Source: Lacinutrix mariniflava
GTDB taxonomy: Bacteria > Bacteroidota > Bacteroidia > Flavobacteriales > Flavobacteriaceae
Direction of reading: 5' to 3'
DNA length: 64,000 nt
NCBI RefSeq assembly: GCF_001418015.1
Contig: NZ_LIQG01000026.1
Span: 558,001 to 622,000, forward strand
Part shown: one piece after another, positions 1 through 7,500 of the stretch
Position numbering within the stretch: position 1 is the first letter of the stretch
Layout of the letters: each line of letters starts with the position of its first letter
The notes under the pieces: generated by a model
What the model was told of the DNA's origin: nothing
The model's input: only the letters and a program-made list of their open reading frames with translations
Database searches by the model: none
Program-made: the position numbers and the translations under genes

Positions 1-761
1 TTCTTTGTTTCTGGCGATAATTCTTTTCTAAAACGTTCGGCAACCTTCATACCTTTTGTGTATAATCTTGCGCCTGGACCTCTTGATCCATGGTGCGTAA
101 TCATCATGGTATTTCCTGTTTTTTTAGATTTACCAACGAATAAAAAATGGTTACCATCGCCTTGAGTTCCTAAATGTGATCTCGCTATTTGCAACATATT
201 TCCATCGTTTAAGAAATAGTTGGCTTCAAAAGCTTCTAATAATGTTTTTGGGAATCTAAATTGCGACTCTCTATCTCTTCCACCTGGACCAAAATGTGTA
301 TTTGCATGTGCGGCATCTAAAACATCTTTTGGATCTGCTTTACCAAAATCTGTTAACATGACAGAGCAACAAATATCTGCACTGTGCATTCCTGGATGGA
401 TGGCGTTTTTTGCTACAGCAACGCCTCCAACTGGGATTGTTCCGTCTGGACCTGCAGGACAAGCATCTGGCATGATTGCACCATCGACTAATGTTGGTGT
501 TTTCATTAAGGTATGCATAGAGTTTACTACTTTGGCAACATTGTCTTTTTCTTCTTCGTTTTCTGCTTTAATGTTTATAGAAAAATTTATTGGACTTTTA
601 TGTAATGCGATAGGATCTGGCGATTTAAATTGCTCTAAATATGTGATCATTTCGTCGTCTTCTAAGTTGTTTTCGTTAATGTGTGTAATGGCGTCTTTCA
701 TCCATTTTCCTTGTCTGAAACCTAACTCTAATAAGTGGTTTCCTGTTATTTTTGTGTTCAT
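1..761 (-). CDS. rtcB: RtcB-family RNA ligase (partial, C-terminus off the left edge)
   Basis: RtcB ligates RNA 2',3'-cyclic phosphate or 3'-phosphate ends to 5'-OH ends with GTP and Mn. About 253 codons are visible. The protein starts [15 protein letters not shown]. It then shows [15 protein letters not shown], the metal site [10 protein letters not shown] (D-x-x-C as in other RtcBs), [21 protein letters not shown] and HHGSRGPG, all hallmark RtcB blocks. The C-terminal part with the GMP-linked histidine lies outside the window. The start at 761 follows an AGAAATTAGAAAACATG leader that closely resembles the leader of the 195-aa gene at 5686. An operator and -7 element sit at 787-822. With prfH in the same island this is most likely the RtcB2-type ligase that repairs cleaved 16S rRNA in PrfH systems (established family knowledge; assignment to RtcB2 is inferred). 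Confidence 0.95.
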
Positions 762-786
762 GTTTTCTAATTTCTTAATGACACTA

Positions 787-822
787 CAAATATGATAGTG
801 CGCTACGCGATGTTTTTGCGTA
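787..822 (-). promoter_or_regulatory. rtcB promoter with shared operator (site B)
   Basis: Read on the minus strand, a 19-bp quasi-palindrome (complement of 804-822, left arm TACGC, right arm GCGTA) is followed by exactly 10 nt and then ATATTTG (787-793). This resembles the Flavobacteria -7 element TAnnTTTG. The rtcB start codon lies 26 nt further on. The same operator, 10-nt spacer and ATATTTG occur at 3345-3380 and 5703-5738. No TTTG is visible at -33 and the operator covers that position, which suggests an activator-dependent promoter. Confidence 0.7.
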
Positions 823-837
823 GTTATGTTTAATTAT

Positions 838-913
838 CCTGCAAGGTTTCCAAAACCTTGTAGGTGTGGTTTTTATGTTTATTAAACCTACAAGGTTTTG
901 GAAACCTTGCAGG
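838..913. repeat. Perfect 27-bp inverted repeat with 22-bp loop
   Basis: Arms 838-864 and 887-913 are perfect reverse complements (CCTGCAAGGTTTCC... and the mirror ending ...GGAAACCTTGCAGG). Each arm is itself nearly palindromic. It looks like an intergenic hairpin repeat of the kind common in Flavobacteriaceae. It lies between the slipin gene and the rtcB promoter. It lacks a clean T-tract, so it is not a typical terminator. Confidence 0.75.
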
Positions 914-949
914 AGTAAAAGCTAATATGATTCTGCAATACTGAAATAA

Positions 950-4974: not shown

Positions 4975-5098
4975 GGTTTCTAATTTTTAATTCAACTTCT
5001 ATTTTGGTTGAAATGCGTTGCAAAGATTTAACTTTATTTTCGACTTTTCAAAATTTATTTTTTATTTCCTTGAAAATCAGCTTGCATAATACGAAGTA

Positions 5099-5686
5099 TT
5101 ATATTTTTTTGAAAAAAGCAAGGAATTTTTGTTTAAAGGTTGATTTTTCTGTTTTTTGAACGGTATATATAGTATTATCAATTGTGTTTTCTTCATTTAT
5201 AAAACCTATTTTTTCTTCTAATTTTGCGTAAGAATTAAATTGTTTTAAAATATCATTTGAGGTATATTCTACAATATGATTTAATTCAATTTCATCGTAA
5301 ACTCCAATGTCTAATAAATCGAAATCACAATACAAATAGTATAATTGGTTTTGAATAATTGAATCTGTTTGGAAGTTATAATAATTACTAAAATTTTTCA
5401 ATATTAAAAAAGACTCTTTTGATGTTTTTGAATGTTTGAGTTTTGTGTATGTGTTCATTACTATAAATTTTATAAGCTCATTATTTTCAAAGTGTAGAAT
5501 TAGAATGTTTTCAAATTTTTTAAGCCATTCTTCATTTTTATAATTAATTGAAATTAGGTCGAAATAAAATGAATTTATATTTATTTGACGCACAAATTCT
5601 TCAGAACCATACAACCAATTTTCAAATTCTGAAACGCTTATTTTTTCAGTTAAAACATCAAATATTTTTAATTTTAAAACTTCCAT
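5099..5686 (-). CDS. Unknown 195-aa protein co-regulated with the RNA-repair island
   Basis: I do not recognise this family with confidence. It is acidic, rich in I, F, N and E, has no signal peptide or membrane segment, and is probably mostly helical. Its N-terminus (FENWLYGSEEFVRQININSF, then YFDLISINYKNEEW) is reminiscent of small cytosolic proteins in Flavobacteria that resemble immunity proteins, but this is only a resemblance. It starts at 5686 directly behind promoter site A, which shares the operator with rtcB and the tRNA-like RNA. It could be a toxin-neutralising partner or a repair factor. It is more AT-rich than its neighbours. Confidence 0.7.
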   Translation of the reverse strand: MEVLKLKIFDVLTEKISVSEFENWLYGSEEFVRQININSFYFDLISINYKNEEWLKKFENILILHFENNELIKFIVMNTYTKLKHSKTSKESFLILKNFSNYYNFQTDSIIQNQLYYLYCDFDLLDIGVYDEIELNHIVEYTSNDILKQFNSYAKLEEKIGFINEENTIDNTIYTVQKTEKSTFKQKFLAFFKKI

Positions 5687-5702
5687 TGTTTCTAATTTCT
5701 AA

Positions 5703-5738
5703 CAAATATTAGACGCAAATACGCAATCTTTTTGCGTA
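5703..5738 (-). promoter_or_regulatory. Divergent control region with shared operator (site A)
   Basis: The operator TACGCAATCTTTTTGCGTA (5720-5738) has perfect 7-bp arms (TACGCAA/TTGCGTA) and a 5-bp centre. It is followed on the minus strand by 10 nt and ATATTTG (5709-5703). It serves the 195-aa gene (start 5686). The WYL regulator start (5779) is 41 bp away on the other side, so autoregulation is likely. It differs from site B at two positions and from site C at two. Confidence 0.75.
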
Positions 5739-5778
5739 CTAATTTTTTTAGTATAAATTAGAGGATAAATCTTCTAAA

Positions 5779-7500
5779 ATGGCAGTCAATAAAAACGCAT
5801 TAATTCGATATAAAACCATAGATAAATGTCTTCAGAATAAGTTTAGAGAATGGACGCTTAACGATTTAATTGAAGCAGTTTCCGATGCTCTTTACGAATA
5901 TGAAGGTAAAGATGTAGATGTTAGTAAACGTACTGTACAGTTAGATTTACAAATGATGCGTAGCGATAAATTAGGTTATAATGCGCCAATTATAGTTTAC
6001 AATAGAAAGTATTATAAGTACGATGAAGATGATTATAGTATTACTAACAGTCCAATTTCTAATCAGGATTTAACGAAATTATCTGAGGCGGTTTCTTTTT
6101 TAAAACAGTTTCAAGGTTTTTCGCATTTTGAAGAATTAGGTAGTATGGTTCAAAAACTGGAAGATCATGTTCACACTCAAAAAACACAGGAAAAACCATT
6201 AATAGATTTCGAAAAGAATGACAATTTAAAAGGATTAAGATTTTTGGATGTTTTGTATCAATTCATTTTAAATAAACAAGCCATTGAAATTACGTATCAG
6301 TCGTTTAAAGCGAGACAAGAAAACACATTTACTTATTACCCATATTTACTAAAAGAATTTAGAAACAGGTGGTTTATTATTGGGAAAAGACGAAAAAATG
6401 AAGGCTTAATGAATTTAGCATTAGATAGAATTATTGCTATTGAAAAGAGTGAAAAACCTTTTGTGTATGATCCTGAATTTAATTCGGAAACCTATTATAA
6501 AGATGCTATTGGTGTTTCTGTTAGTCCGCAATTAGAAACAGAACACGTTTTATTATATATAAACCATAAACAAGCACCTTATGTGTTAACGAAGCCTTTT
6601 CATCATTCGCAAAAGGAAGTAGAAAAAGATAATTATGGTGTTACTATTTCTTTAGATGTGCAACTTAATTTTGAATTGGAAAAAGAAATTCTTGGTTTAG
6701 GTGAAGGTATAAAAGTTGTTGCTCCAGAGCGTTTAAAACGTCAGATAAAAGAGCGATTATATGACGCTGTAGACGCTTACGAAACAGAGATTAATGATAA
6801 AAATCTACGTACGATTGCAAAACGATTGGAGTACAAAGGTTTCGGTTTATTAAATCAGGTATATACTAAGCGTGATATAAGAAAATTGAAGGCAAGGTTT
6901 GATAATTATATAAAGCAGAATAACGAGCAAGCTTTTGGTATGAGAGAAGTGCTTAAAAAGATGCCGGAATTAAAAGAAATCCTGATTAATAAGAATTTTA
7001 AAAAACTGATAAAAGCTATAGATAAAGATGCTTTTTTAACGAAAGCGATATATTTTGATAAATCGCCAAGTGATAACTGGTATGTAACTTGGCATCAAGA
7101 CGTGCCAATAAATGTATTAGAAAAAAAGGATGTAGAAGGCTTTGTATCTTGGACTAATAAAAAAGGAGTAGTAAGTGTTTGTCCTCCAGAAGCGATTTCT
7201 AAAAACACCTTTTCTATGCGTATTCATTTAGACGATACCACAGGCAAAAACGGTGCTTTAAAGGTAATTGCAGGTTCGCATAACAAGCGCTTATCTGACG
7301 ATGAAATACAGTTAATTAGCACTAATTCTATTCCTTTTGTAAGTGAAATAGCAGCAGGTGGTGTGCAATTATTAAAACCATTGTTATTACATGCTTCGTC
7401 TAAAACCACGGTTCAAAAAAGGCGTCGTGTTTTGCATTTAGAATTTTCTTCTATTGAGTTGCCTAATGGGTTGGAGTATGCGGAGAGAGAAGATTTATAA
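5779..7500 (+). CDS. WYL-domain transcriptional regulator fused to a PhyH-like 2OG-Fe(II) oxygenase domain
   Basis: 573 aa. Residues 1-75 form a helix-turn-helix region (TVQLDLQMMRSDKLGYNAPI). Residues about 140-330 are a WYL region (AIEITYQSFKAR, YLLKEFRNRWFIIGKRR, LALDRIIAIE), the usual ligand-sensing module of such regulators. From about 350 a second domain follows that matches phytanoyl-CoA-dioxygenase-like enzymes. It has WHQD (H439, D441), SMRIHLDDTTGKNGALKVIAGSH (from S479; PhyH hallmark NG.L.VI.GSH) and LLLHASS with distal H538, then an arginine cluster at 548-550. All three iron ligands of the HxD...H triad and a candidate 2OG arginine are therefore present. It is the only regulator near the island and lies divergent to operator A. 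It probably controls the three shared promoters. The oxygenase could sense 2OG, oxygen or iron, or modify RNA or protein. Confidence 0.85.
   Translation: MAVNKNALIRYKTIDKCLQNKFREWTLNDLIEAVSDALYEYEGKDVDVSKRTVQLDLQMMRSDKLGYNAPIIVYNRKYYKYDEDDYSITNSPISNQDLTKLSEAVSFLKQFQGFSHFEELGSMVQKLEDHVHTQKTQEKPLIDFEKNDNLKGLRFLDVLYQFILNKQAIEITYQSFKARQENTFTYYPYLLKEFRNRWFIIGKRRKNEGLMNLALDRIIAIEKSEKPFVYDPEFNSETYYKDAIGVSVSPQLETEHVLLYINHKQAPYVLTKPFHHSQKEVEKDNYGVTISLDVQLNFELEKEILGLGEGIKVVAPERLKRQIKERLYDAVDAYETEINDKNLRTIAKRLEYKGFGLLNQVYTKRDIRKLKARFDNYIKQNNEQAFGMREVLKKMPELKEILINKNFKKLIKAIDKDAFLTKAIYFDKSPSDNWYVTWHQDVPINVLEKKDVEGFVSWTNKKGVVSVCPPEAISKNTFSMRIHLDDTTGKNGALKVIAGSHNKRLSDDEIQLISTNSIPFVSEIAAGGVQLLKPLLLHASSKTTVQKRRRVLHLEFSSIELPNGLEYAEREDL

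Follow-up and report, generated by a model that had tools for sequence, protein, structure and literature searches.

Tandem, circularly permuted tRNA-like RNA beside an SPFH gene in an RNA-repair neighbourhood of Lacinutrix mariniflava

The first 7.5 kb of the stretch of Lacinutrix mariniflava DNA analysed here (64,000 nucleotides of contig NZ_LIQG01000026.1, positions 558,001 to 622,000, from a 4.0 Mb draft genome; hereafter the window, in whose numbering positions are given) form an island of RNA-repair genes, all on the minus strand except a plus-strand gene for a WYL-WCX-PhyH protein. Upstream of the gene for a stomatin-like SPFH/Band-7 protein stands a region that resembles tRNA, which raises the question of what this RNA is and what it does beside an SPFH protein. 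Burroughs and Aravind are said to have proposed, in 2016, RNA-repair systems of SPFH/Band-7 proteins with a tRNA-like RNA; an SPFH gene, a tRNA-like RNA and an RNA ligase reportedly stand together in that system, as they do here. The answer developed below is that the RNA is a tandem of circularly permuted tRNA mimics, consistently paired with this SPFH family, and that the island has about an even chance of being an RNA-damage response unit centred on the SPFH protein and its own RNA. An original prediction, made from the sequence, had placed rtcB, a GGQ-bearing prfH, the SPFH gene, a tRNA-like RNA, and genes for a TPR protein, a 195-aa protein and a WYL protein in this island, and all of them are confirmed in place. 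The permuted build of the RNA and the tRNA arrays of related loci, described below, were not part of that prediction.

The RNA part of the island comprises the following features:

About 2783-3222, minus strand: tRNA-like region; Rfam tRNA matches of 43.9, 32.7 and 26.5 bits (threshold 29, under which the third falls)
2400..3082 (ends approximate), minus strand: structured non-coding RNA beside the SPFH gene; match to covariance model R1 at 2839-2967, 108 bits
2988..3082, minus strand: 5' domain of this RNA; consensus stems, with a 24-nt motif at 3062-3039
2892..2958, minus strand: permuted tRNA-mimic unit 1; covariation in all helices, sub-threshold YrlA match of 28.1 bits
2814..2885, minus strand: permuted tRNA-mimic unit 2; covariation, 72.5% of acceptor cells paired
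2792..2806, minus strand: second anticodon-like hairpin, TGGA-CTCAAAA-TCCA, from the sequence
3083..3222, minus strand: upstream tRNA with a Tyr-type body and an insert of roughly 60-70 nt in the anticodon loop; Rfam tRNA, 43.9 bits

The tRNA-like region is a tandem of circularly permuted cloverleaves, in which the acceptor stem is closed by a hairpin and the anticodon stem is open. Unit 1 runs from an open anticodon stem (TCTAT/GTAGA) through a variable loop, a T-arm and an acceptor hairpin (CTTCA/TGAAG) to a D-arm, and unit 2 from a T-arm through an acceptor hairpin (CTAGATC/GGTCTAG) and a D-arm to an anticodon-like hairpin with the 7-nt loop TTTAGGT. The second anticodon-like hairpin is also seen when 20 Lacinutrix-Winogradskyella-type loci are folded to a consensus. 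ARAGORN in default mode calls no tRNA in the island, whose tRNA-like units are permuted or interrupted. Conserved stretches of the RNA begin with the 5' domain and reach as far as a TATTTCCGTAG motif (2500-2479), and since they continue toward the SPFH gene, the whole RNA is perhaps about 600 nt long.

Related loci show how constant this arrangement is. A close SPFH homologue (E < 1e-100) is present in 23 of 199 genomes sampled from the family, the window genome included, and from a scan of named genomes, in which the closest SPFH gene is that of Lacinutrix algicola (99% identical), the best 80 of 171 SPFH loci were kept. Adding the window locus and 20 wide loci of the first set brought the total to 101, or 99 once the exact duplicates L033 and L037 were removed; all 99 come from related species, and the loci are not independent. 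T-arm-like hairpins lie upstream of the SPFH gene, on its strand, in 99 of 99 loci, and the 24-nt 5' motif (GTGTTTCTGTATAGCACCATTGTA, within 4 mismatches) is present in 92, at 0.54-1.15 kb upstream of the SPFH start. After the motif, these 92 loci carry two T-arms in 72 cases, three in 15, four in 2 and one in 3. Counting as downstream the T-arms that follow the motif, or that lie at most 520 nt from SPFH in the seven motif-less loci, the permuted arrangement fits 177 of 210 and the ordinary one 61 (50 fit both), with 22 fitting neither; upstream of the motif, 30 of 432 T-arms fit the permuted arrangement, 389 the ordinary one and 40 neither.

The same position, with T-arms on the SPFH strand ahead of the start in every locus and the 5' motif within this distance range, would also suit a cis-acting leader of the SPFH mRNA, either T-box-like or a decay-controlled sensor of tRNA damage, that sets the expression of SPFH and RtcB. 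Such a leader would tell against a unit built around the RNA itself, but we judge it rather improbable: conservation runs over hundreds of bases, in our judgement beyond what most leaders need.

When 86 loci were folded together with no structure supplied (six of the 92 motif-bearing loci, which have a single T-arm or a spacing of over 95 nt between T-arms, were omitted), the consensus enclosed T-arm, acceptor hairpin and D-arm within an anticodon-type stem, UCUAU/AUAGA, and placed a second T-arm and acceptor hairpin after this first unit. Alignment A1 was reduced from these 86 loci to 71 by a 93% identity filter, of which 64 were used (L050, L079, L114, L121, L124, L125 and L129 are left out). 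Two-sided changes occur in 27 of its 30 pairs, and 91.9% of cells are paired; cells with two-sided changes number 451, against a shuffled mean of 138, and a shift of the partner by 1-3 columns leaves 39-48% of cells paired. In unit 1, 97.4% of acceptor-hairpin cells pair and each of the five pairs shows two-sided changes; the acceptor hairpin of unit 2 is weaker, at 72.5%. Pairing of the acceptor strands as in an ordinary tRNA stands at chance (40.0% vs 42.7%), which together with the ARAGORN blank rules out a plain tRNA. Pseudogene debris is excluded by the covariation. A phage origin was also rejected, the IUPAC form of the 5' motif having no exact match in the viral collection.

The same data bear on whether a tRNA array has decayed here into a region that no longer functions. 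Decay would sit well with a window that has no full array and whose sole upstream tRNA carries an insert, but it would have to accommodate both the near-complete, two-sided pairing of the first acceptor hairpin and a 5' motif kept in 92 of 99 loci. Unless the covariation is an artefact of alignment, it contradicts this account, which is very improbable indeed.

The coupling of RNA and SPFH gene was measured with R1, a covariance model made from SPFH loci; it was applied to 395 Bacteroidota genomes, with 8 candidates scored per genome. At E 1e-4 the model matches 394 of the 395, because it also fits tandem ordinary tRNAs; since these dominate the lower scores, a limit of 80 bits was chosen, after the match list had been viewed. 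Seventeen matches reach at least 80 bits, one per genome, of which 16, the window (108 bits) included, adjoin this SPFH family and the 17th is a run of ordinary tandem tRNAs. All 14 loci checked that have no gene of this SPFH family (L177 and L180-L192) likewise carry ordinary tandem tRNAs. That SPFH gene and tRNA-like RNA form a consistent pair, as had been predicted, is thus upheld by the T-arms in 99 of 99 loci, the 5' motif in 92 of 99 and these 16 of 17 matches.

Bacterial Y RNA is described as a circularly permuted match of tRNA (PMC11472068, in excerpt), and the Rfam consensus of YrlA (RF02553) has the same order as the units described here: stem, T-arm, acceptor hairpin, D-arm, stem. 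The window's own unit 1 aligns to this consensus at 28.1 bits, under the YrlA gathering threshold of 69, and a related locus gives a separate match for each unit, of 34.3 and 40.4 bits. A search of 16 SPFH loci gave YrlA matches at E 0.01 or better in 13 (best 47.4 bits), the window locus (L165) not among them; of four tandem-tRNA controls, two matched as well, with 31-34 bits. Because the controls cross-react, the same topology is claimed for the island RNA, and not membership of YrlA; the island loci score 28-47 bits against the threshold of 69, their 5' domain is different, and their T-arms stand in tandem, usually two and sometimes three or four. The Salmonella rsr-yrlBA-rtcBA operon, in the excerpted text of PMC7790460 (YrlA, RF02553), likewise holds RtcB near a circularly permuted tRNA-like RNA, and the island differs from it in having SPFH in place of Ro60/Rsr. 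Neither TROVE/Ro60 nor RtcA nor RtcR was found by Pfam among the six island proteins, and no genome-wide search for Ro60/TROVE was made.

The likeness to YrlA also lends itself to a reading in which the permuted mimics are decoys that hold anticodon nucleases or maturation enzymes and lower the damage, the SPFH protein merely storing them. The YrlA domain has been suggested as a competitive inhibitor of anticodon nuclease (Hughes et al. 2020, PMC7790460, in excerpt), and the mimics would offer such enzymes a tRNA-shaped elbow with covarying D- and T-arms and no CCA end, followed, after unit 2, by anticodon-like hairpins. However, unit 1 offers no anticodon loop, and the conserved 5' domain suggests an additional role; we regard decoys as unlikely, on a par with the leader.

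The protein-coding genes around the RNA are these:

1..761, minus strand: rtcB, N-terminal part; PF01139, 125 bits
1169..2269, minus strand: SPFH/Band-7 protein, 366 aa, stomatin-like, with N-terminal repeated units; PF01145, 99 bits
3387..3929, minus strand: TPR protein, 180 aa, with a lysine-rich C-terminal tail; TPR_19, 27.1 bits (cut-off 25)
3934..4644, minus strand: prfH release factor; TIGR03072, 221 bits (cut-off 167)
5099..5686, minus strand: orphan 195-aa protein, without a family match at E 0.01
5779..7500, plus strand: divergent WYL, WCX and PhyH protein, likely a regulator; PF13280, 42 bits, PF25583, 31 bits, and PF05721, 34 bits

The SPFH protein meets PF01145 at 99 bits against a gathering score of 23.6, and its profile matches stomatin, QmcA and HflK chains. 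Several of the stomatin and QmcA entries matched contain at least 16 chains of one sequence, which would fit an SPFH oligomer. The protein has no transmembrane segment by hydropathy (maximum 19-residue value 1.1), and weak internal repeats can be aligned at its N-terminus.

RtcB seals RNA ends that carry a cyclic phosphate and a 5'-OH. The complete window rtcB, which extends beyond the window start to G000:C26:557358, encodes 467 aa; the protein passes PF01139 (125 bits vs 27), and its motifs align to those of P. horikoshii RtcB (DICC/DINC, GDGNHF/GSGNHF, the HGSRG/HTGSRG region, HAKGAT/HRKGAT and HGAGR), the conserved motifs of the active site. It stays under the cut-offs of two curated models, TIGR03073 (49 vs 272 bits) and NF007153 (75 vs 407 bits), which by their names we take to represent RtcB2. 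By these scores the window protein is a divergent RtcB, distinct from the PrfH-coupled RtcB2 kind. Of the outcome that was to refute the original prediction, a grouping with RtcB1 and not with the PrfH-linked RtcB2, half thus applies: the protein lies outside the RtcB2 models. The PrfH-adjacent RtcB of L067 and L074 come nearer (TIGR03073, 148 and 163 bits) and are still under the cut-off of 272. With the window RtcB as query, a single RtcB is found in the window genome, and a second kind, 26-30% identical to it over most matches and including those of L067 and L074, stands upstream of PrfH in Aquimarina, Tenacibaculum, Polaribacter and other loci. The window PrfH passes TIGR03072, at 221 bits against 167, with GPGGQ present in its translation, and prfH has been proposed to act together with RtcB (PMC6514570, in excerpt). 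The rescue units of that source, as excerpted, likewise group a TPR gene with prfH and rtcB, so that the combination with a lysine-tailed TPR protein, once thought perhaps undescribed, was in part already published. Unlike those units, the island has an RtcB outside the PrfH-coupled RtcB models and an added SPFH-RNA pair.

Across Bacteroidota, comparison of neighbourhoods shows these genes co-occurring in related genomes, which tells against a chance assembly, and the conservation that had been predicted holds. Families were counted by clustering open reading frames within the fetched stretch of each of the 99 loci, so that genes outside it escape the count: TPR occurs in 46, RtcB in 44, an RNase_T exonuclease in 33, WYL in 30, PrfH in 25, the 195-aa family in 15 and an RLIG1-type ligase in 13, where the RNase_T and RLIG1 names each rest on one tested member and that of RLIG1 only just passes (PF17720, 26.7 bits vs a cut-off of 25). 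All six window proteins are matched in the order WYL, 195-aa, PrfH, TPR, SPFH, RtcB in 7 of the 99 loci (L032, which is the window, L054, L060, L061, L062, L063 and L091), and the WYL gene is on the opposite strand in 30 of the 30 loci that carry it. The fusion of WYL with a PhyH oxygenase domain is seen in the window; some relatives align over all 573 residues and others over about residues 1-335. The 195-aa family shows 24-35% identity across 11 aligned relatives, with Pfam matches beyond E 0.01 only at chance level.

Many SPFH-RNA loci have no PrfH or RtcB found near them, which would be expected if the island were two neighbouring but independent units, one of PrfH and RtcB that deals with rRNA damage and one of SPFH and RNA with another role such as envelope stress. 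This is quite improbable, less likely than either the leader or the decoys. The RLIG1-type ATP-dependent RNA ligase stands in, upstream of the permuted RNA, at 13 Flavobacterium loci (L107, L108, L112-L114, L116, L119, L121, L122, L125, L126, L128 and L132), where RtcB and PrfH were not found in the fetched stretch and an RNase_T-type gene is often near. The SPFH protein itself, having no membrane segment by hydropathy, also speaks against a role at the envelope.

Ordinary tRNAs stand upstream of the RNA in many relatives. By filtered calls, at least one is present in 70 of the 99 loci, at least three in 49 and at least eight in 18, and none was called on the strand opposite SPFH in the scanned stretches. 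Asp (47), Tyr (43), Leu (42), Pro (36) and Arg (31) lead among the 412 counted, and Ala, Gly, Val and Thr together make up 11; among 102 distinct chromosomal tRNAs, retrieved as incomplete sets from four genomes, they number 23. One genome was compared tRNA by tRNA, and there 12 of 15 array tRNAs had a retrieved chromosomal counterpart: 11 of the 12 agree with it at about 56-78% of aligned positions, and Arg-ACG at 94%, where the counterpart may be the array copy itself. Array tRNAs are nearer to the arrays of other loci than to the chromosomal tRNAs of two genomes in 13 of 13 kinds tested (at most 25 tRNAs per kind, some loci being closely related).

At position 37 several kinds of array tRNA depart from their chromosomal counterparts, in counts drawn from related sequences that are not independent trials. 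A pyrimidine occupies it in 46 of 46 array tRNA-Asp(GTC), 45 of them U and one C, and U in 20 of 22 array tRNA-Glu, against the chromosomal loops CTGTCAC (Asp, four genomes) and TTTTCAT (Glu, two genomes); overall, pyrimidine 37 is found in 72 of 413 array tRNAs (55 of 375 distinct) and in 0 of the 102 distinct chromosomal ones. A replaces G37 in Pro (36/36), Leu-TAG (27/32), Gln (25/26) and His (18/24), Phe goes in the opposite direction (G for A in 18/26), and Tyr, Lys, Asn and Ser retain A37 throughout. Phage tRNAs are proposed to evade anticodon nucleases through loop changes (PMC10264068, in excerpt), and those sets likewise consist of extra tRNAs with altered anticodon loops; unlike them, the array tRNAs lie in bacterial genomes beside repair genes, and their nuclease resistance is putative. 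If they do form a reserve, nucleases that cut chromosomal tRNA-Asp and tRNA-Glu should leave the array versions intact.

In the window, the interrupted tRNA at 3083-3222 may be read, by its position and Tyr-type body, as the remnant of such an array. Its Rfam alignment leaves 57 positions unshown in the anticodon loop, and an uninterrupted Tyr(GTA) occupies the same place in L053, L054, L056, L060, L061, L064, L066, L091 and others. By eye, a structured insert of about 50-70 nt (AAATGC..GCATTCACGAA..GTGAGCTAA) is found in anticodon or T loops of array tRNAs, in both orientations: in the window at 3083-3222, in L055, L057, L062, L063, L073, L077, L085, L089, L090, L108, L109 and L130, and in the array of genome G102. 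A strict form of its pattern occurs in other DNA of 7 further genomes of 149, with 12 matches in all against 2 for a reversed control. An intron was considered for the insert at 3083-3222 and rejected: since the element is found in either orientation in array tRNAs and elsewhere in the DNA of relatives, a mobile insertion is the better account, and the insert is probably a small mobile element.

In Salmonella, tRNA fragments induce rtcBA (PMC7790460, in excerpt), and in Anabaena, deletion of the TrcR repressor raises rtcB 77-fold and a slipin gene 42-fold, TrcR also controlling a 26-tRNA trn operon (PMC10272220, in excerpt). The Anabaena regulon likewise comprises a tRNA array, rtcB and a slipin gene, there under common control; unlike the island, its genes are at separate loci by their numbers, in another phylum, and the excerpts of PMC10272220 describe no permuted RNA. 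From RtcB chemistry, the Salmonella induction, the proposed prfH-RtcB partnership and the Anabaena regulon, we infer an inducible damage response, with the SPFH-RNA pair as its scaffold.

In a response unit centred on the SPFH protein and its RNA, nuclease toxins would cut tRNAs or rRNA and the divergent WYL protein would turn the island on. PrfH would then free stalled peptides, and RtcB would reseal cyclic-phosphate and 5'-OH ends. The soluble SPFH protein and the RNA might assemble into a ring or cage; with their acceptor end closed, no CCA and an open anticodon stem, the tRNA-shaped modules would be barred from translation and so could provide tRNA-handling enzymes with a platform to dock on. 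In many relatives, the upstream array of divergent spare tRNAs, several kinds of which have altered anticodon loops, would replace destroyed tRNAs, and as a single interrupted tRNA is left in the window genome, its island should rely on repair. A bolder version, possible but doubtful, is a bacterial vault-like particle, a soluble stomatin-like SPFH cage on the long RNA of tandem permuted mimics, together with an inducible tRNA reserve that evolves separately and whose anticodon loops have been remade to evade anticodon nucleases; the cell would exchange its tRNAs for this resistant set while RtcB, RLIG1-type ligases and PrfH mend the rest.

Several observations weigh against the response unit. 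PrfH was not found in 74 of the 99 loci, nor RtcB in 55, within the fetched stretch, so that neither is obligatory nearby. The window genome is without the array that carries part of the argument, having one interrupted upstream tRNA only. R1, moreover, was built from SPFH loci and scored 8 candidates per genome, so that copies which are diverged or unlinked may have escaped the coupling count.

The island joins themes that are usually separate: repair by RtcB and PrfH, mimicry of tRNA in the manner of Y RNA, and spare tRNAs as a defence against toxins that cut tRNA. Among the matches listed, by open-licence titles and abstract openings, no paper joined SPFH, permuted tRNA mimics and spare-tRNA arrays. 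The permuted RNA thus offers a concrete target for the roles of SPFH proteins and tRNA mimics in RNA repair.

Other elements lie at or near the loci. One of the loci with ordinary tandem tRNAs, L190 (genome G399), is a 13-tRNA cluster, with this SPFH family not found in the 3-kb fetched stretch. A second conserved RNA of about 206 nt is present in 23 of the 99 loci (e.g. L070:5853-6060 and L053:5893-6095), upstream of the permuted RNA in all of them except L046; its core was not found in the window, and its place in L070 has no covering Rfam match. This RNA has the acceptor, D- and T-arms of a tRNA, with an insert of about 130 nt replacing the anticodon arm, a highly conserved core (GAATAGAATTTGCAGAAGCACCGAAA ... 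GTAGGGAAGCGCATTTAGAGCC) and two-sided changes in 33 of 52 predicted pairs. Between SPFH and rtcB in the window, a near-perfect inverted repeat at 836-915, with arms of about 27-30 bases by eye, is matched sub-threshold by several microRNA models, probably through shape alone. The Rfam element Flavo-1 lies in the same interval, at 983-1138 on the plus strand (48.2 bits, threshold 42), and another Flavo-1 match, of 54.3 bits, stands just upstream of SPFH in L070.

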